Source: a virus. From it: a stretch of 56,001 bases of DNA. Under the pieces are notes generated by a model. It was not told the DNA's origin. It saw only the letters and a program-made list of their open reading frames with translations, and ran no database searches. Numbering within the stretch: the first letter of the stretch is position 1; every line of letters starts with the position of its first letter. The stretch is from positions 1-56,001 of the IMG/VR virus record IMGVR_UViG_3300037584_004279; one strand, 5' to 3'. The position numbers were made by a program, and so were the translations under genes. This document shows, one piece after another, positions 7,291 through 14,497 of this stretch.

Positions 7291-7513
7291 TTGTAACTTG
7301 TTCGCCTTTTATTATCATGGTGTAAGATTGTCTTTTGTCAAAATAAATAGTGTCCTTTTTTTTGATAACAGTTACATCACTACCTGGCTCTATGACTTCT
7401 GCTTTTTGATAACGCAATCCTTTTGCATCTTCTTGAGACAGCAATAGCCCTGAATCTGTTTCAATCTCTTCTTCAATTATTTTTACAACTATATTTTTAC
7501 CTATCGCTTTCAT
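7256..7513 (-). CDS. groES: co-chaperonin GroES (phage-encoded, 85 aa)
   Basis: An 85-residue GroES family protein: N-terminal strand MKAIGKNIVVKIIEEE, then TDSGLLLSQEDAKGLRYQKAE covering the mobile-loop region, then a GSDV...KKKDTIYFDKRQ core and a C-terminal DVVVVL strand. It is slightly shorter than bacterial GroES (about 95). It acts as the heptameric lid of GroEL. It starts 17 bases inside the groEL 3' end, so it is translationally coupled, but the order is groEL then groES, the reverse of the usual bacterial operon. It probably helps fold capsid or fibre proteins. Its 3' end overlaps the convergent 6856-7290 gene. Confidence 0.9.
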   Translation of the reverse strand: MKAIGKNIVVKIIEEEIETDSGLLLSQEDAKGLRYQKAEVIEPGSDVTVIKKKDTIYFDKRQSYTMIIKGEQVTITQERDVVVVL

Positions 7514-9104
7514 ATGAACGTGCCATTGTTATTATTGCATTAGTAGAAAGAATAGTTACTGCTACACTCACTGCATTTTGAAGCGCACACTTTGTAACTT
7601 TCATTGGGTCTATGACTCCCATTTTTATTAAGTCACCATACTTTTCATTTTTCAAGTCATAACCTTTTTTCCAACCTTTCACATCTTTATAAATTTCTTC
7701 TACATTTAATCCTGCATTTTCTAGTATCTGGGTCAAAGGAGACTTTAGAGAGTGCGCTAAAATTGCGTAAGCAATTTTTAAATTTTTGTCTTTAGTCTTC
7801 TTTTTTTCAAAATCTTGCGAAATTCGGTACAAAGCTAGTCCACTGCCAGGCAATATACCTTCCTCTAGTGCTGACTTCACAGCACAGACTGCATCATCTA
7901 CTCTATCATACAACTCTTTTTGTTCTAAGTCTGTATTGCCTCCTACATATATAACGCCTATTCCACCCGTCAAAGATGCAATCCTTGATTCAATAAATTC
8001 CTTATCTGCTTTTTTACTTGCATTCTCATGAGCAATCCATAATTCTTTTACTCTTTCTTCAATCTGAGATTCGTTAGTTTTTGTTTCATCTTTAAGGATG
8101 ACCGTTGAGTCTCGACTAACTATCACCTTAGCCGCATGACCCAAATCAGTAAAATTAATAATACTCAAGTCATCCCCTGTCTTCTCGCTGAAGTATGTTG
8201 CCCCCACAGATAAAGCTATATCTTGCATTAACTCATGTTGCTTGTATCCAAAAGAAGGAGGCGTGATAGAACATATTTTTAAGTTTCTTTTCATTACGTT
8301 TGCTGCCAAAGTGTTTGTCACATTGGTTGAGCATGGAGCAATGATTAATAATTTTTTATTGTCGGCTATTATAGGTTTAAGAATATTTTCTATTTGAAGT
8401 ATATTGTTTATCTCTGCATCCGACACCATGATATAAACATCTTCTAGTACACACTCATCTTTTTTCTGGTCATTTATAAATAGAGGGGATAAATAACCTC
8501 TGTCTACTTTAATACCATTTGTGGTTTCAAAATAAGTATCGCTGGTTTGTGATTTTTCCACAGTAACAATTCCGTCTTGACCTACACTTTCGTATACATC
8601 AGCGATTATTTTTCCAATCTCATTATCATTATTGGCCGATATAACAGCTACATCTCTAAGCTTACTCTTATCTATTTCGTGGCTTTTACTTTTCAACTCC
8701 TCTACAACTAATTTCGTTTGGTCAACTAAACACTTTAAAACTTCGGTTCTATTTATATCCTCACCCATTGTGCAAGTCCCATGTTCTACTAAAGCTTCAG
8801 TTAAAACAATAGCTGTAGTCGTACCATCACCTGCTAAAGTAGCAGTCTTATCTGCCGCTTCTTTCATCATGCGAACTGCAAGGTTTTCAACTGGGTCCAT
8901 GAGAGATATAGATTTCGCCACAGTAACTCCATCTTTTGTTACAGTTATACCATGAGTATGGTCTTGAGATTCTATTAATACAGTATTACCTCTAGGGCCT
9001 AATGTACTCTTTACAGCCTTAGCAATTTTTGCTATGCCTTGTGTTAATTGATTTCTTGCTGGTTGTGAAAAATGTAGTTCTTTAGGAGTATAGCCTGGAT
9101 TCAT
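7497..9104 (-). CDS. groEL: chaperonin GroEL (phage-encoded, 535 aa)
   Basis: A near full-length 60-kDa chaperonin. Visible features: GPRGNTVLIES (nucleotide-binding loop), VTKDGVTVAKSI, the ATPase motif AGDGTTTAIVLTEAL, apical-domain segment DRGYLSPLFI, GGIGVIYVGG, and RVDDAVCAVKSALEEGILPG with the conserved aspartates of the catalytic site. It lacks the C-terminal GGM repeats of bacterial GroEL and ends MARSYESDR. Many positions differ from host-type GroEL, as expected of a long-standing phage lineage. It has its own strong promoter upstream (9128-9158) and runs into groES with a 17-base overlap. Phage GroELs are known from several marine and giant phages; substrate here unknown. Confidence 0.95.
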   Translation of the reverse strand: MNPGYTPKELHFSQPARNQLTQGIAKIAKAVKSTLGPRGNTVLIESQDHTHGITVTKDGVTVAKSISLMDPVENLAVRMMKEAADKTATLAGDGTTTAIVLTEALVEHGTCTMGEDINRTEVLKCLVDQTKLVVEELKSKSHEIDKSKLRDVAVISANNDNEIGKIIADVYESVGQDGIVTVEKSQTSDTYFETTNGIKVDRGYLSPLFINDQKKDECVLEDVYIMVSDAEINNILQIENILKPIIADNKKLLIIAPCSTNVTNTLAANVMKRNLKICSITPPSFGYKQHELMQDIALSVGATYFSEKTGDDLSIINFTDLGHAAKVIVSRDSTVILKDETKTNESQIEERVKELWIAHENASKKADKEFIESRIASLTGGIGVIYVGGNTDLEQKELYDRVDDAVCAVKSALEEGILPGSGLALYRISQDFEKKKTKDKNLKIAYAILAHSLKSPLTQILENAGLNVEEIYKDVKGWKKGYDLKNEKYGDLIKMGVIDPMKVTKCALQNAVSVAVTILSTNAIITMARSYESDR

Positions 9105-10104: not shown

Positions 10105-10704
10105 ATGAATAATTTAAACCAAATCGAACAAGAGTTTTTATCTCATACTGGGGTACGAAATCATGTTCCGATTAACACAATTCAAAACCTATCTCAACAG
10201 ATAGGAGATGCGAAAAAAAGTAAGTTTGAAAAATCGTTGAAACTTGCTAAAATCGTAAACAAGGCCAATGACTGGTACAAATCAGAGGAAGCGAAAAACC
10301 TCATGAACACTGAGGGCGTAGACTGGGTAAATGTTGAAATATTTGCCGAGAGAGTTTTCGGTTGGAAAAAATCATATTTTTTCAAAATGGTTAAAGCGGG
10401 TAAATTACTCGAGGAAAATCCACAGGTTGTAACGAAATTCAAAAGAGAGTGTACACAGGCAGAGAACAATGGCGAAAGCACTTCAAGAAGCCTTGAAAGT
10501 TTACACAAATTCGCAAAGGCGGAACTAACAGAGGGGAATGCTCAAGTAATCGAAAGACCAAAAGCAATTTTAACCCTTAAAGGAACTGGACAATTTTCTC
10601 ATATAAAATTCGAAATTTTCCCAGATGAGGTTAAAACCTCAAACGAAGTTGCCCAGTTAACTGAGGTAATGAATTTGATTAACTTAAAAATTTCAGAGCT
10701 ATGA
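10105..10704 (+). CDS. unknown early protein, possible DNA-binding helix-turn-helix (199 aa)
   Basis: Not recognised. Residues about 65-110 (GVDWVNVEIFAERVFGWKKSYFF...) look helical and could form a helix-turn-helix of the kind that recognises a partner motif or DNA. The segment around residues 150-185 (ILTLKGTGQFSHIKFEIFP) is strand-rich and may be a second small domain. It is the first gene of the early operon, and its TGA overlaps the ATG of the amidoligase gene (ATGA at 10701-10704), so the two are coupled. Codons such as CGA, GCG and GAG are commoner here than in the late genes. Confidence 0.6.
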   Translation: MNNLNQIEQEFLSHTGVRNHVPINTIQNLSQQIGDAKKSKFEKSLKLAKIVNKANDWYKSEEAKNLMNTEGVDWVNVEIFAERVFGWKKSYFFKMVKAGKLLEENPQVVTKFKRECTQAENNGESTSRSLESLHKFAKAELTEGNAQVIERPKAILTLKGTGQFSHIKFEIFPDEVKTSNEVAQLTEVMNLINLKISEL

Positions 10705-11786
10705 TTGATACAGGAGTAAAATTTGAAATTACTGGGGACACCGCTCGAGGAGTAGTCCGAGGGTATCATGGAAGCCCTGAGCCTGAGTTCATCAACAAAG
10801 CTAAAAAGGTTGATTTGCGAGGGATAAAAACAACAAACATTGTTGAAACATATGAGGGCACACAATGGGATGACCCGAACGAAATTCAAAGTAAATTTAA
10901 TATCGGTTTTGAAATTGAAAAGCTAAGATTTCACAGAAGGGCGGTCATGGAATACCCTCTGTTTAAAGGTTTTGAAACTGATTCTAGTTGCGGAGTTGAA
11001 GCGGTTACTCATGTGCTTCCTCTGTTGCCAAAATCACTTTGGAGGACGAAAGTTTTTAACATGTTTGTTGAAGCTAAGAAAATTATCTCTGATGAGTTTA
11101 GCCCATCCGATAGAAGTTGCGGGGGTCATATCACTTTGAGTGTTCATGGTTTGAGCGGTCAAGAAGTTGCCGAGAAAATCAGAAAAAACTTCGGTATATT
11201 TTACGCTATTTTCAGAAAGAGATTACCCAATAATTATTGCAGTCGAAATCTTTCAATAATTCCTTTAGAATACGAAAGCAGTTTAAATAGTTTTTTAGGT
11301 GGTAGACACAACAAGTATTGCCCTGTAAAAATCATGGACCACGCTATCGAGTTGAGACTCCCGAGCAGAGTTCAGAGCGTCAAGCAGATGATGAGGAGGT
11401 ACGAGCTCTGTTATCATCTGTTAGACTTTTCAATTAATAATCCGAACGGAACTCACAAAAAATTTCTTAAGATTATTAGACCTGTACTCATGAGCATGTA
11501 CGAGGGGAACGCTGAAAAAGTGGACTGGTTAGAAACGCTTGCGGGACATTTTAGAAGAATGATTTTGACTCATAAATTTAACAGGTATGTCATCCCCTAC
11601 GTAGAGGGGTGGAAATGGATTAAAAGCCAGTACGCCAGCAGAGGTGCTTTTGTAAGGGGCAGAGAACTATTTCACCACGCTCATTTAACATGGTTTGACA
11701 CAGACTTAAAAAGGAACTACGATGTATTAGCTGATGAGTGGGAGGATAGAGTCCGAGGGTCTGAGGTTAATGTATATATGCCCTAG
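10701..11786 (+). CDS. amidoligase family enzyme (ATP-grasp-like COOH-NH2 ligase, 361 aa)
   Basis: Motifs match the Amidoligase_2 family: NIGFEIEKL (residues 67-75) for the first conserved strand with its glutamates; TDSSCGVEAVTHVLPLLP (93-110), the acidic-S..GVE-V...L element; DRSCGGHITLSVHG (137-150), the CG.H motif; then a KRLPNNYCSRN stretch and a late strand AIELRLPSRVQ that resembles the family's EFR motif. The family is predicted to join a carboxylate to an amine using ATP (Iyer and co-workers' analysis of amidoligases), often beside class II glutamine amidotransferase and gamma-glutamylcyclotransferase genes. A fused version of exactly those two domains lies at 13373-14497. Substrate unknown; peptide tagging of a protein or of a cell-wall or nucleotide substrate are possibilities. 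Confidence 0.75.
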   Translation: MIDTGVKFEITGDTARGVVRGYHGSPEPEFINKAKKVDLRGIKTTNIVETYEGTQWDDPNEIQSKFNIGFEIEKLRFHRRAVMEYPLFKGFETDSSCGVEAVTHVLPLLPKSLWRTKVFNMFVEAKKIISDEFSPSDRSCGGHITLSVHGLSGQEVAEKIRKNFGIFYAIFRKRLPNNYCSRNLSIIPLEYESSLNSFLGGRHNKYCPVKIMDHAIELRLPSRVQSVKQMMRRYELCYHLLDFSINNPNGTHKKFLKIIRPVLMSMYEGNAEKVDWLETLAGHFRRMILTHKFNRYVIPYVEGWKWIKSQYASRGAFVRGRELFHHAHLTWFDTDLKRNYDVLADEWEDRVRGSEVNVYMP

Positions 11787-11805
11787 AGTGTCTTTAAAGA
11801 CACTC
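11786..11805. repeat. dispersed palindrome copy 2 (20-bp perfect)
   Basis: GAGTGTCTTTAAAGACACTC is a perfect 20-bp palindrome that starts on the last base of the amidoligase stop codon. As RNA it would fold into a hairpin, but no T tract follows, so it is not a classical terminator. Confidence 0.85.
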
Positions 11806-11807
11806 TC

Positions 11808-11852
11808 AGAGCGTTTTGGAAATTTAGAGGGGTTCGACTCCCCTCACGCTCT
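11808..11852 (+). ncRNA. tRNA-like minihelix (acceptor stem plus T arm only)
   Basis: AGAGCGT (11808-11814) pairs perfectly with ACGCTCT (11846-11852), a 7-bp acceptor-like stem. Inside, GAGGGG/CCCCTC closes a 7-base TTCGACT loop at 11827-11845. This contains a perfect B-box match, GGTTCGACTCC, as in tRNA T arms. Only 12 bases separate the 5' acceptor strand from the T stem, so the D and anticodon arms are absent. It may be a tRNA remnant, a tRNA 3'-end capture, or a functional tRNA mimic. It sits between the amidoligase-end palindrome and a small membrane-protein gene. Confidence 0.55.
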
Positions 11853-11874
11853 CTAACTTTTTAAAACAATTATT

Positions 11875-12018
11875 ATGAAATACTTACTAAAATCAATTTG
11901 GAATGACACAAACCCACTTTTAGCATTGTTTATTTACAAGCTAATGTTGATGAGTTTTACAGGCATTCTTTTTATACTATATCAAACTATTTTTAATGGC
12001 GTAACAATTAACTTTTAA
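11875..12018 (+). CDS. small single-pass membrane protein (47 aa)
   Basis: A 47-codon ORF with ATG at 11875 after an AT-rich leader (ttattATG) identical in style to that of the next gene. It reads MKYLLKSIWNDTNPLLALFI... and continues with a hydrophobic stretch (about residues 15-42) containing LMSFTGILFILYQTI, long enough for one or two passes. No family recognised. Its position in the amidoligase module suggests a membrane-linked role for part of this module, but that is speculation. Confidence 0.6.
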   Translation: MKYLLKSIWNDTNPLLALFIYKLMLMSFTGILFILYQTIFNGVTINF

Positions 12019-12030
12019 ATTATTATTATT

Positions 12031-12432
12031 ATGAAATACTTAAACGATTACACAGAACAAGCACAAACAAACCTGTTCAAACAAAGAAAAGTTTTCTTTG
12101 CCTTCAGTAACGAACAATTCATTGAAGGCATGAGAAAACATTTCCTAACAAAGCAAGACCAAATCACTGGACTGGGCTCGGGTATGTATTGCCCAAGAAA
12201 TCAAGCGAAAAAAGTTTTAAAAGAACTTAACAAGATTTATACTAATGCAATAAAACAAGACATTGCAGAGAATGGAATCGAAAGAATTATCAAAAGAGAA
12301 CTTTCAAACCATGAATGTTATTACACTGGGGACACGATTGATTGTATAGAAAAATTAAAAGATTACCCCAATATAACAGAGGATTTAATTAATAAAATAT
12401 TTTACAAAAATTTAAAAAAATATCATGAATAG
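12031..12432 (+). CDS. conserved phage protein of unknown function (133 aa)
   Basis: A 133-residue protein with KVFFAFSNEQFIEGMRKH near residue 20 and GLGSGMYCPRNQAKKVL near 50, followed by helices. The order FFAFS.EQF.EG..K, then a loop LG.G.Y.P......., is one I associate with small hypothetical proteins of Bacteroidota phages and prophages; no biochemical role is known to me. One HECYYTGD segment could be a binding loop. Its stop overlaps the next gene's ATG region (12425-12432). Confidence 0.65.
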   Translation: MKYLNDYTEQAQTNLFKQRKVFFAFSNEQFIEGMRKHFLTKQDQITGLGSGMYCPRNQAKKVLKELNKIYTNAIKQDIAENGIERIIKRELSNHECYYTGDTIDCIEKLKDYPNITEDLINKIFYKNLKKYHE

Positions 12433-12568
12433 ACACAGAATAGAAAACAACATTTTACACCACGCAAAAGCGAGGAGAGAAAACAGGAGGTTAATGAGAA
12501 TTAAAAACCTGATGGATAAGTTTGGCCTAACAAGAGAACAAGCCGAAAAGAAAGTCGCCAATATTTAG
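12425..12568 (+). CDS. small basic protein (47 aa)
   Basis: A 47-codon ORF, MNRHRIENNILHHAKARREN..., ending LTREQAEKKVANI. Arg/Lys-rich and helical, with a C-terminal MDKFGLTREQAEKKV helix-turn-helix-like hairpin. It overlaps the upstream gene by 8 bases and ends nine bases before the first hammerhead ribozyme. No family recognised. Confidence 0.6.
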   Translation: MNRHRIENNILHHAKARRENRRLMRIKNLMDKFGLTREQAEKKVANI

Positions 12569-12576
12569 TTTAATTA

Positions 12577-12644
12577 GTTACTCTGATGAGCAACACAGAA
12601 AGGTGGCGAAACAGAGGGGATTAAAAACCCCCTTTGTCAGTAAC
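12577..12644 (+). ncRNA. hammerhead ribozyme 1 (type I topology)
   Basis: All conserved core bases are present. Stem I is GTTACT (12577-12582) with AGTAAC (12639-12644). Then come core CTGATGA (12583-12589), stem II (12590-12607, GC..CAC/GTGGC with an AA bulge), core GAAA (12608-12611), and stem III ACAGAGGGG (12611-12619) with CCCCTTTGT (12629-12637, one G.T pair). The predicted cleavage site is after C12638 of GTC. Both ends emerge from stem I, which makes it type I. It lies between the 12425-12568 gene and the HAD phosphatase gene. Self-cleavage would give the HAD mRNA a 5'-hydroxyl end 22 bases before its ATG. Confidence 0.85.
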
Positions 12645-12660
12645 AATTAAAATTAAAATT

Positions 12661-13182
12661 ATGAATCTAAAACACTTAAATAGAAAATACAATAAAGTAA
12701 TAATATTTGACTTAGATGGAACACTTGCCGATATAAGCAAAAGAAGGGAAGTGTCCAGTAAGCCAGATGGCAAGATTGATTGGGACAAATTCTATGACCC
12801 GAACAATATCAAACTTGACAGGCCAAATTACCCAGTGGTAGAAGTTGCGAAGCACCTATGGAGAGATTACAGGATAATAATATTTAGCGGTCGTTCAGCG
12901 GGAACGCAAGAAGCGACTGAGCAGTGGTTGGAGAAGTACAACATATTTTATGACGATATAAAGATGAGACCCACAAGCCAGTTGATGAAACCCGATGATG
13001 TTTTAAAAGAGGAATGGTTGGACGAACTCATAGAGCAAGAGCAAGAAATTACTGATGAATGGGACGACCCAAGTTTTGCTATGTACAGAATTATGTGCGT
13101 CTTTGATGACAGGGATAAAGTCGTTAAGATGTGGCGAAGGAGAGGATTAAAATGTTTTCAAGTTGCAGAAGGAAACTTTTAA
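12661..13182 (+). CDS. HAD-superfamily phosphatase, polynucleotide 3'-phosphatase-like (173 aa)
   Basis: Start taken as ATG 12661 (MNLKHLNRKY); the frame is open to a TTG at 12634 inside the ribozyme. Motif I is KVIIFDLDGTLADI with the catalytic DxD pair (D17, D19), motif II is IIIFSGRS, a conserved lysine lies downstream, and the acidic motif CVFDDRDKVV is near the C-terminus. The FSGR, KMRPTSQLMKPD and FDDR.KVV.MWR..G.....VA.G arrangement is that of the phosphatase domain of T4 Pnkp. It would remove 3'-phosphates (or cyclic phosphates) from nucleic acid ends. Hammerhead cleavage leaves a 2',3'-cyclic phosphate, and this gene lies between two hammerheads: a notable coincidence. Confidence 0.8.
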   Translation: MNLKHLNRKYNKVIIFDLDGTLADISKRREVSSKPDGKIDWDKFYDPNNIKLDRPNYPVVEVAKHLWRDYRIIIFSGRSAGTQEATEQWLEKYNIFYDDIKMRPTSQLMKPDDVLKEEWLDELIEQEQEITDEWDDPSFAMYRIMCVFDDRDKVVKMWRRRGLKCFQVAEGNF

Positions 13183-13201
13183 TGCGAAAGAATATTTCGC
13201 A
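13183..13201 (+). other. 7-bp hairpin directly after the HAD gene
   Basis: TGCGAAA/TTTCGCA with a 5-base loop, starting on the base after the stop codon and ending three bases before hammerhead 2. No T tract follows, so it is more likely an RNA structural or protective element than a terminator. Confidence 0.55.
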
Positions 13202-13204
13202 ATA

Positions 13205-13262
13205 GATAATCTGATGAGAGTTGTGTACTCGAAAGGGTGGATTTATTTCCGCCCTCATTATC
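13205..13262 (+). ncRNA. hammerhead ribozyme 2 (type I topology)
   Basis: A textbook fold. Stem I is GATAAT (13205-13210) with ATTATC (13257-13262). Core CTGATGA is at 13211-13217, stem II is GAGT/ACTC (13218-13221 with 13227-13230, loop TGTGT), and core GAAA is at 13231-13234. Stem III is AGGGTGG (13234-13240) with CCGCCCT (13249-13255, one T.G pair). The predicted cleavage site is after C13256 of CTC. Every core base matches the consensus. It sits after the HAD gene and before the promoter of the GATase-GGCT gene, so it would trim the 3' end of the upstream transcript. Confidence 0.9.
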
Positions 13263-13276
13263 AAGCAACAGAGGTA

Positions 13277-13308
13277 TTTGGATATGTCGATAGAATGTCG
13301 TACCTTTG
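13277..13308 (+). promoter_or_regulatory. strong promoter of the GATase-GGCT gene (TTTG-N20-TACCTTTG)
   Basis: TTTG at 13277-13280, exactly 20 bases, then TACCTTTG at 13301-13308: the best Bacteroidota-type promoter in the window. The start of transcription should fall near 13315, so the dispersed palindrome at 13335-13350 lies in the 5' leader of the resulting mRNA. Confidence 0.75.
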
Positions 13309-13334
13309 TTTAAATTATGTTTAACCTTAGGGCA

Positions 13335-13350
13335 GTGTCTTCAAAGACAC
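13335..13350. repeat. dispersed palindrome copy 3 (GTGTCTTCAAAGACAC)
   Basis: A 16-base inverted repeat, arms GTGTCTT/AAGACAC around CA, 22 bases before the ATG of the GATase-GGCT gene and just downstream of its promoter. The position would suit an operator or a leader hairpin. Confidence 0.8.
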
Positions 13351-13372
13351 CCCACTTAAATACTTAAAACAA

Positions 13373-14497
13373 ATGTGTATAATAATAATAAAACAAAAGC
13401 GAAACAAGATTTCGCAACAAGTCCTGAAAAACTCAGCGAGAAAAAACCCTCATGGATTGGGGATAGTATGGTTAGATACTTTCAAAGTATCTTATCATGA
13501 ATCAAAAGATTACAAAAAACTAAATACAACAAGACCCTTCATTGCTCATTTTAGATACGCAACGATTGGGAAAATATGTAAAGAAAACACGCATCCATTT
13601 AAATGCGGTAAGAAGCACAACGAACTGCTGATGATGAATGGAACTATTAGCGAGTTGGGAAACAAGAACATGACCGACACTCAAGATTTAGCCATCAAGC
13701 TAGGCAGAATTGAAAGACATATTTGGAAGCAAAAACTTGCTCAGTATTCTTTGGTTAGGTTTGCAACCATTAACACAAGAAACAGAACTTTCCAAATATA
13801 CAACAAGCACCTTTGGACACACAAAGATAAAGTTTGGTACTCTAAAGACAATGTGTTCACAACCTACAAAACACCTAGTTGGGTATCAAGATTTGCGGGT
13901 AATGTAGGAGTTGGTACCAGCACCCCAAGTGAATTTGTTTTTGAAAACCACAATGAATTTGAGGATGAGTTTGATTGGAAAAATGAAAGCAATGTTTGTG
14001 TTCAATGCACCAACGATTTGATGTATGATGAAAGCGAGTTATCGGAGAACAAATACTATTGTGTAAGTTGTGATAAAAGTTTTTCTAAAGAACAAGTAAT
14101 GGACTTTACAGAGTTTGATACACCGAAGTACGAGGGTAACAAAGAACTTGTCGCAGTGTATGGAACTTTGAAAAGAGGGTTTGGAAACCACCGAAACTTT
14201 TTGCAAGACCAAGAGTTTGTCGGTAGCGGAACGACTCAAGATAGGTACCCCTTAATTGTTAAGGGGTTACCATTTCTTTTGAATGAGAAAGGCAAAGGCC
14301 ATAATGTAGAAGTAGATGTGTTCAATGTAGATATGCCAACCTTAGAAAGTTTAGACGCTTTGGAAAACCACCCGACATGGTACAGACGAAAAGAAATAAA
14401 CATACTCTTGAATGGAAGTGCAAAAAAGTGTTGGATTTACTTTAACATAACAGAGCAATCAAAAGGAGAGAAGTATCACAAAACATTTAAATATTAG
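13373..14497 (+). CDS. class II glutamine amidotransferase - zinc ribbon - gamma-glutamylcyclotransferase fusion (374 aa)
   Basis: Three domains in one chain. Residues 1-170: Ntn-type glutamine amidotransferase with the catalytic cysteine right after the initiator Met (MCIIII), NPHGLGIVW (25-33), RPFIAHFRYATIG (54-66), NTHPF (72-76) and MMNGTI (87-92). Residues 205-240: zinc ribbon with CxxC pairs at C209/C212 and C230/C233. Residues 255-374: GGCT/AIG2 fold with VAVYGTLKRG (260-269) and the acidic LDALE (327-331), whose glutamate matches the catalytic acid. The first would release ammonia from glutamine, the last would handle gamma-glutamyl amides. With the amidoligase at 10701-11786 this suggests a pathway that makes or recycles an amide-linked product. 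Fusion of these two enzymes with a zinc ribbon is unusual. Own promoter. Confidence 0.85.
   Translation: MCIIIIKQKRNKISQQVLKNSARKNPHGLGIVWLDTFKVSYHESKDYKKLNTTRPFIAHFRYATIGKICKENTHPFKCGKKHNELLMMNGTISELGNKNMTDTQDLAIKLGRIERHIWKQKLAQYSLVRFATINTRNRTFQIYNKHLWTHKDKVWYSKDNVFTTYKTPSWVSRFAGNVGVGTSTPSEFVFENHNEFEDEFDWKNESNVCVQCTNDLMYDESELSENKYYCVSCDKSFSKEQVMDFTEFDTPKYEGNKELVAVYGTLKRGFGNHRNFLQDQEFVGSGTTQDRYPLIVKGLPFLLNEKGKGHNVEVDVFNVDMPTLESLDALENHPTWYRRKEINILLNGSAKKCWIYFNITEQSKGEKYHKTFKY

Follow-up and report, generated by a model that had tools for sequence, protein, structure and literature searches.

Clusters of genes encoding an amidoligase, a glutamine amidotransferase (GATase) and a gamma-glutamyl cyclotransferase (GGCT) are widespread in phages, and both their function and their substrate are given as hypotheses only in the papers cited here. 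In 2008, a family of carboxylate-amine ligases was described whose gene neighbor is a GATase-like thiol peptidase in some cases and an Aig2 cyclotransferase in others (PMC2588565). A 'peptidoglycan modification cassette' has since been described in RIO-1, phiEco32, LUZ24, PaP3 and other phages, its action on peptidoglycan being a hypothesis (PMC5498523, citing Iyer 2009 and Hardies 2013). The gene set of this cassette is annotated in UFV-P2 (PMC3890496), and an amidoligase together with a GATase is reported for marine OM43 phages, where the superinfection hypothesis is repeated (PMC10580990). In PaP3, separate Amidoligase_2, GATase, ATP-grasp and GGCT genes are clustered, whereas a Bacillus phage has an amidoligase with a separate GGCT and an Arthrobacter phage an amidoligase with a separate GATase. 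Here, we analyze DNA of an aquatic phage, a stretch of 56,001 nucleotides that makes up an entire virus contig (IMG/VR record IMGVR_UViG_3300037584_004279, positions 1 to 56,001; the window hereafter refers to this whole stretch). Linked amidoligase, GATase and GGCT genes being already known in phages, what the window carries is a remodelled version of a known set, composed of a divergent ligase gene (10701-11786) and a gene for a GATase-cyclotransferase fusion (13373-14497). A sequence-only reading of this DNA had pointed to a published association of the three enzymes, and precedent for it is indeed found (PMC2588565, PMC5498523, PMC10580990). Every open reading frame (ORF) named in that reading is present where it was placed. 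We consider it probable, at about 0.65, that the two genes form a module with which the phage both makes amide bonds and trims them.

The ligase, encoded like the other features below on the plus strand unless stated otherwise, has the motifs GFEIE (residues 69-73), CGGH (140-143) and, as a strand motif, IELR (216-219). In a comparison with hhalign, the profile of its family was matched to nine Amidoligase_2-type proteins with a probability of 92.5 and an E-value of 5e-7, the four motifs being in register; the C75C1 member of this nine-protein set itself matches PF12224 at 3.5e-30. Throughout the alignment of relatives (35-89% identical), the blocks GFE-x-EK, ExDxSCGxEA, CGGH and ExR are invariant, and E71, E73, E92, D94, E100, H143, E217 and R219 do not vary wherever they are covered (about 81 ligase relatives). 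The GhExE signature is present on core strand 1 (G69-F-E71-I-E73, strand 66-74), and acidic residues are found on strands 2 and 3 (E92 and D94 on strand 88-94, E100 on strand 98-103). For the AlphaFold2 model (pLDDT 80.5, pTM 0.82), all 50 matches listed by Foldseek and all 50 listed by VIA belong to the GS/GCS superfamily, with gamma-glutamylmethylamide synthetase (GmaS) at the top and glutamine synthetase, PafA and YbdK among the others. Since TM-scores are low and the best Z-score is a modest 8.8, the ligase can be placed at the superfamily level only. At this level, sequence profiles and the predicted structure support its membership in the glutamine-synthetase/carboxylate-amine ligase superfamily with an apparently intact active site. 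The amidoligase assignment made in the sequence-only reading is thus upheld, as the motifs are there and both profile comparison and fold search yield the superfamily; the contrary outcome that it had named beforehand, a protein outside the amidoligase fold, did not materialize. One relative (L032 11272-13032, MW202828) has a ligase ORF extended at the N-terminus by ~240 residues, a part with no Pfam match.

The second gene encodes a class II (N-terminal nucleophile, Ntn) glutaminase, a zinc ribbon and a cyclotransferase resembling gamma-glutamylamine cyclotransferase (GGACT) on a single chain. The glutaminase/GATase domain with its Cys2 nucleophile comprises residues 1-165 (13373-13867). It is identified by structural matches to EgtC (Z 11.8) and to the glutaminase domain of GlmS (Z 11.3) and by conserved residues, C2, R61, N89 and G90 being found in 94 of 94 aligned relatives and D102 in all 93 that cover it. 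The roles of C2, R61, N89-G90 and D102 in the glutamine site are presumably those of their counterparts in GlmS. The GGACT domain (residues 257-374, 14141-14494) matches PF06094 with an E-value of 1.5e-21 (77.6 bits, the cut-off being 22.8) and resembles the human and mouse gamma-glutamylamine cyclotransferases in structure (Z 17-18). Its Glu331 aligns with the catalytic Glu82 of human GGACT, the residue mutated to Gln in structure 3jud of the human enzyme, and both Glu331 and the YGTL motif are kept in every relative covering them (~94 relatives aligned). Judging by sequence and model, the cyclotransferase is nearest to GGACT and not to the classical glutathione-type GGCT. In other words, the earlier description of the chain stands as to Cys2, the four-cysteine ribbon and the catalytic Glu, whereas its classical GGCT gives way to a GGACT-like domain. 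Residue conservation indicates that the ligase, glutaminase and GGACT domains have each kept an intact active site, and all three are predicted to be catalytically competent.

The four-cysteine zinc-ribbon module between the two enzymes (residues 197-245, 13961-14107; CxxC...CxxC at residues 209-234) is recognized by a hidden Markov model built from 86 C-terminal ribbons (37.4 bits). The ribbon is internal only in the source phage and two near-twins, C-terminal in 86 relatives and absent in C75C1. Such relocation within the protein would favor a docking role over a structural one. The fusion had seemed new when only the window was considered; it is in fact common to more than 80 aquatic phages, and what is special to the source phage and its two near-twins is the internal position of the ribbon.

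Counting each locus with a ribbon-type fusion once, the ligase accompanies the fusion in 87 of 93 loci (in 82 within the fetched flank and in 5 at the opposite contig end). The six loci without a ligase (L024, L030, L048, L072, L087 and L098) are all fragments or contig edges. Five of them are contigs of 37-46 kb with the fusion gene within ~2.2 kb of the end, and the sixth, L098, is a 56-kb contig in a metagenome-assembled genome (MAG), again with the fusion near the end. Upstream of the ribbon-less fusions of the C75C1 type, a true Amidoligase_2-type gene is present wherever enough sequence is available. This exchange of partners, a divergent ligase for a true Amidoligase_2 or the reverse, is good evidence of functional linkage. 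Pairing of the ligase and the fusion is near-obligate, and the survey did not produce the relatives lacking a GATase-GGCT gene that had been named in advance as speaking against the link. Bacterial homologues of the fusion come from one locus only. It lies close to the end of a 56-kb contig in a Cytophagales MAG, and this contig is probably that of a phage.

What the module does can be proposed from the families to which its enzymes belong. The ligase would form an amide bond. The Ntn glutaminase would use Cys2 to open a glutamine or gamma-glutamyl amide, either to supply ammonia or to remove a gamma-glutamyl cap, and the GGACT domain would free amines of their gamma-glutamyl groups, releasing these as 5-oxoproline. 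The fusion would thus hold two gamma-glutamyl-recognizing enzymes on one chain, with the zinc ribbon as a movable docking module for a substrate or partner. Several observations weigh against this reading. In the Pfam search, the ligase alone remained without a match, and PF12224 was reached by none of 25 family members; the link to Amidoligase_2 comes from the profile-profile comparison. Two motifs deviate from the superfamily list for carboxylate-amine ligases (PMC2588565): on strand 4, H143 is invariant where covered and the third position is mostly Thr, giving HxT against [HD]x[NH], and on strand 6, E217xR219 is invariant with Ser in place of Asp (ExRxxS against Ex[RK]x2D). The ribbon and linker are modelled at low confidence. 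The second ligase, PF14395, was searched for and not found in the phage module, whereas PaP3 matches it; PaP3 also has an ATP-grasp protein, of which none was seen in the phage module, although the R2K_2 ATP-grasp search matched nowhere and is uninformative for the module. Finally, we found no signal for envelope targeting and no evidence for a substrate. The overall interpretation offered earlier survives in its chemistry and its pairing, and not in its inclusion of a HAD phosphatase gene or in any particular substrate.

As to the acceptor and the benefit, the sequence-only reading had suggested a possible evasion of host defence; published guesses favor a change in the cell envelope directed against superinfection (PMC10580990, PMC5498523). 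With this precedent, our own tentative guess, at less than even odds, is a cell-envelope precursor, which would be altered to exclude other phages, and most of the remaining probability goes to a protein or a small molecule. If the acceptor were a protein, the ligase would attach a gamma-glutamyl group or another amino acid to a protein of the host or the phage, at its lysines (or at a carboxylate), GGACT would reverse the reaction or clean up after it, and the ribbon would recruit the target. Consistent with such a scheme, the cyclotransferase is nearest to GGACT, whose closest characterized relatives act on gamma-glutamylamines, and the fold matches of the ligase include the Pup ligase PafA. 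In addition, a conserved 199-aa protein (10105-10704) appears to be translationally coupled to the ligase, its stop codon overlapping the ligase start (ATGA). In 73 of 82 loci, the ligase is immediately preceded by a member of this homologous cluster, and the protein itself matched no Pfam family. However, no small modifier protein was identified, and human GGACT acts on free gamma-glutamyl-lysine and is not known to act on folded proteins, and we regard modification of a protein as unlikely.

In a small-molecule cycle, by contrast, the gamma-glutamyl amide would be a temporary cap, serving amine salvage or protection or delivering glutamate and nitrogen for phage nucleotide synthesis. The top fold matches of the ligase and the Ntn domain, GmaS and EgtC, are both gamma-glutamyl-cap enzymes acting on small amines, and analogues exist in the ergothioneine (EgtA/EgtC) and gamma-glutamylmethylamide pathways. 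Yet these matches are at the fold level (identity 10-17%) and no dedicated downstream enzyme was seen nearby, which leaves such a cycle rather improbable. The position of the module, upstream of the replication genes and in the same direction, would also suit hypermodification of phage DNA bases by an amino acid or amide, and amidoligases have been considered for roles in base modification. Among the window proteins scanned (not every ORF was included), there is however no base hydroxylase, base kinase or pyrophosphorylase, and we consider this role very unlikely. Whichever acceptor is used, making and trimming of amide bonds remains our preferred reading of the module, and its two-gene version, with the trimming activities on one chain and more than 80 aquatic phages carrying the fusion, is the simplest form in which the pathway could be tested biochemically.

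The operon also contains self-cleaving RNA. Two type I hammerhead ribozymes are predicted, the first at 12577-12644 (cut 12638/12639; model R1, E 4.4e-11) and the second at 13205-13262 (cut 13256/13257; model R1, E 6.2e-13). Both have the type I features (CUGANGA core, GAAA, NUH site and three stems) from which self-cleavage is predicted, and the core pattern is seen twice in the window against 0.11 occurrences expected. A rule-based scan of ~100 loci found 38 hammerheads on the coding strand, one on the opposite strand and none in a reversed-sequence control. At 10 of 11 positions, both partners of a stem pair have changed among the hammerheads, a figure to be read with the fact that stem pairing formed part of the search rule. 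With a covariance model, we found 47 hammerheads in 26 of 96 sources (e.g. L052, L056 and L090), all on the coding strand. A search of 17 whole records gave hits in 16 of them, and comparison of their coordinates with the loci places all strong hits in the ligase-GATase neighbourhood. Most of the 47 (39) lie between the ligase and GATase genes. According to a mechanical ORF finder, and hence approximately, 38 start on a stop codon or no more than 5 nt away from one and 37 end 13-28 nt ahead of an ATG. The ribozyme layout is thus shared by some members of a large family of related phages. The Rfam search did not recover the two hammerheads of the window; in relatives, it gave three sub-threshold hammerheads. 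Shortly 3' of the ligase gene, L090 3822-3876 and L091 338-392 match the type III hammerhead model RF00008 below its threshold (38 bits). The covariance model had no match in the PaP3 or C75C1 stretches searched. It is tempting to speculate that the hammerheads, which in part of the family lie between one gene and ~15 nt before the next start, cut the transcript of the amide-bond operon into single-gene mRNAs, that the stretches they bound are slots for exchangeable cargo, and that ligase and fusion together perform a gamma-glutamyl modification not described so far; taken jointly, these proposals are doubtful. How and why a phage would cut one operon with ribozymes at gene junctions is a second question that can be tested independently of the first.

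The two hammerheads of the window flank a gene for a T4-Pnkp-like HAD 3'-phosphatase domain (12661-13182; PF25109 E 2.9e-29, phrog_505 E 1.6e-37), a PNKP-type phosphatase without the kinase domain. The first hammerhead ends 17 nt ahead of the ATG at 12661, which, lying behind the ribozyme, is a more plausible start than the TTG at 12634. The sequence-only reading had included this phosphatase in the amide-bond pathway. The gene is absent from 34 other records, and we therefore rejected it as a pathway member and regard it as accessory cargo. The T4 Pnkp phosphatase takes off 2',3'-cyclic phosphates, and cleavage by the flanking hammerheads would leave ends of this kind, which such enzymes can remove. 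A general role in healing the ends of ribozyme-cut mRNA was nevertheless rejected, since other hammerhead-bearing records lack the HAD gene; the link would be local at most. A DUF7659 protein (12031-12432; PF24692 E 2e-26), found in the closest records only, is likewise accessory.

The interspersed RNA elements noticed earlier proved to be real, and besides the hammerheads they comprise one tRNA-like element and two hairpins. A 9-bp hairpin directly follows the ligase stop codon (11785-11806) and is part of an element folding with a z-score of -4.4. Next to it, at 11808-11852, the RNA folds into a tRNA-like mini-element with a 7-bp acceptor-like stem and a T-arm (GGGGTTCGACTCCCC) and without an anticodon arm; it could conceivably be a signal for RNase P or RNase Z, although this is guesswork. 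The second hairpin (13330-13353, z -3.0), upstream of the GATase-GGACT gene, contains GTGTCTTCAAAGACAC, the same sequence that forms stem III in the hammerheads of several relatives. Similar short elements of acceptor stem and T-arm occur in gaps behind genes in other loci (L044 5969, L065 7685 (L065/L069) and L090 6813). ARAGORN calls no tRNA at the mini-elements in the window or L090 and none elsewhere in the window, where Rfam at the gathering threshold also gave no match. Longer tRNA-like sequences follow the GATase gene at a distance of a few kb (L071 11030, L061 5048, L040 9895, L087 6899 and others). With acceptor stems of the AGTCAGG/CCTGACT type, T-arms and in some cases a leucine-like D-arm, they look like odd or degenerate tRNAs.

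Profile scans of window proteins also revealed replication genes, an M15 peptidase and, on the minus strand, a GroEL gene (7497-9104, PF00118). The phage GroEL is 73% identical to the GroEL on another contig of the Cytophagales MAG, a similarity that hints at a Bacteroidota host.

Compared with the peptidoglycan modification cassette of the podoviruses PaP3, LUZ24, RIO-1 and phiEco32, the module shares an amidoligase, a class II GATase and a GGCT near replication genes; it differs in joining GATase, zinc ribbon and GGACT in a single protein and in having a ligase of a divergent family. The C75C1-type loci (OQ984151) likewise have an amidoligase upstream of a GATase-GGACT fusion, 43% identical to that of the window, yet they lack the ribbon and their ligase is a true Amidoligase_2 (PF12224). 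Bacterial ligase families have the same GhExE signature and the same types of partner (PMC2588565), but there one partner or the other is present, whereas the phage protein unites both domains in a single chain. Human GGACT (3jub) and EgtC (4zfk) have the same folds as the two enzymatic halves of the fusion, with the GGACT catalytic Glu in register and the Ntn Cys2, although both are stand-alone enzymes and identity to EgtC is low. As for the ribozymes, hammerheads flanking phage genes have been described and transcript processing proposed for them (Perreault 2011, PMC3088659). Several of those flank single genes or short blocks, as here, and PaP3 has one; in the present case, they belong to one operon only across related phages and often lie 13-28 nt before the next ATG. 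In relation to the known cassette, the unusual features of the locus are the internal position of the ribbon and a hammerhead layout that, in the whole records searched, is confined to one operon.

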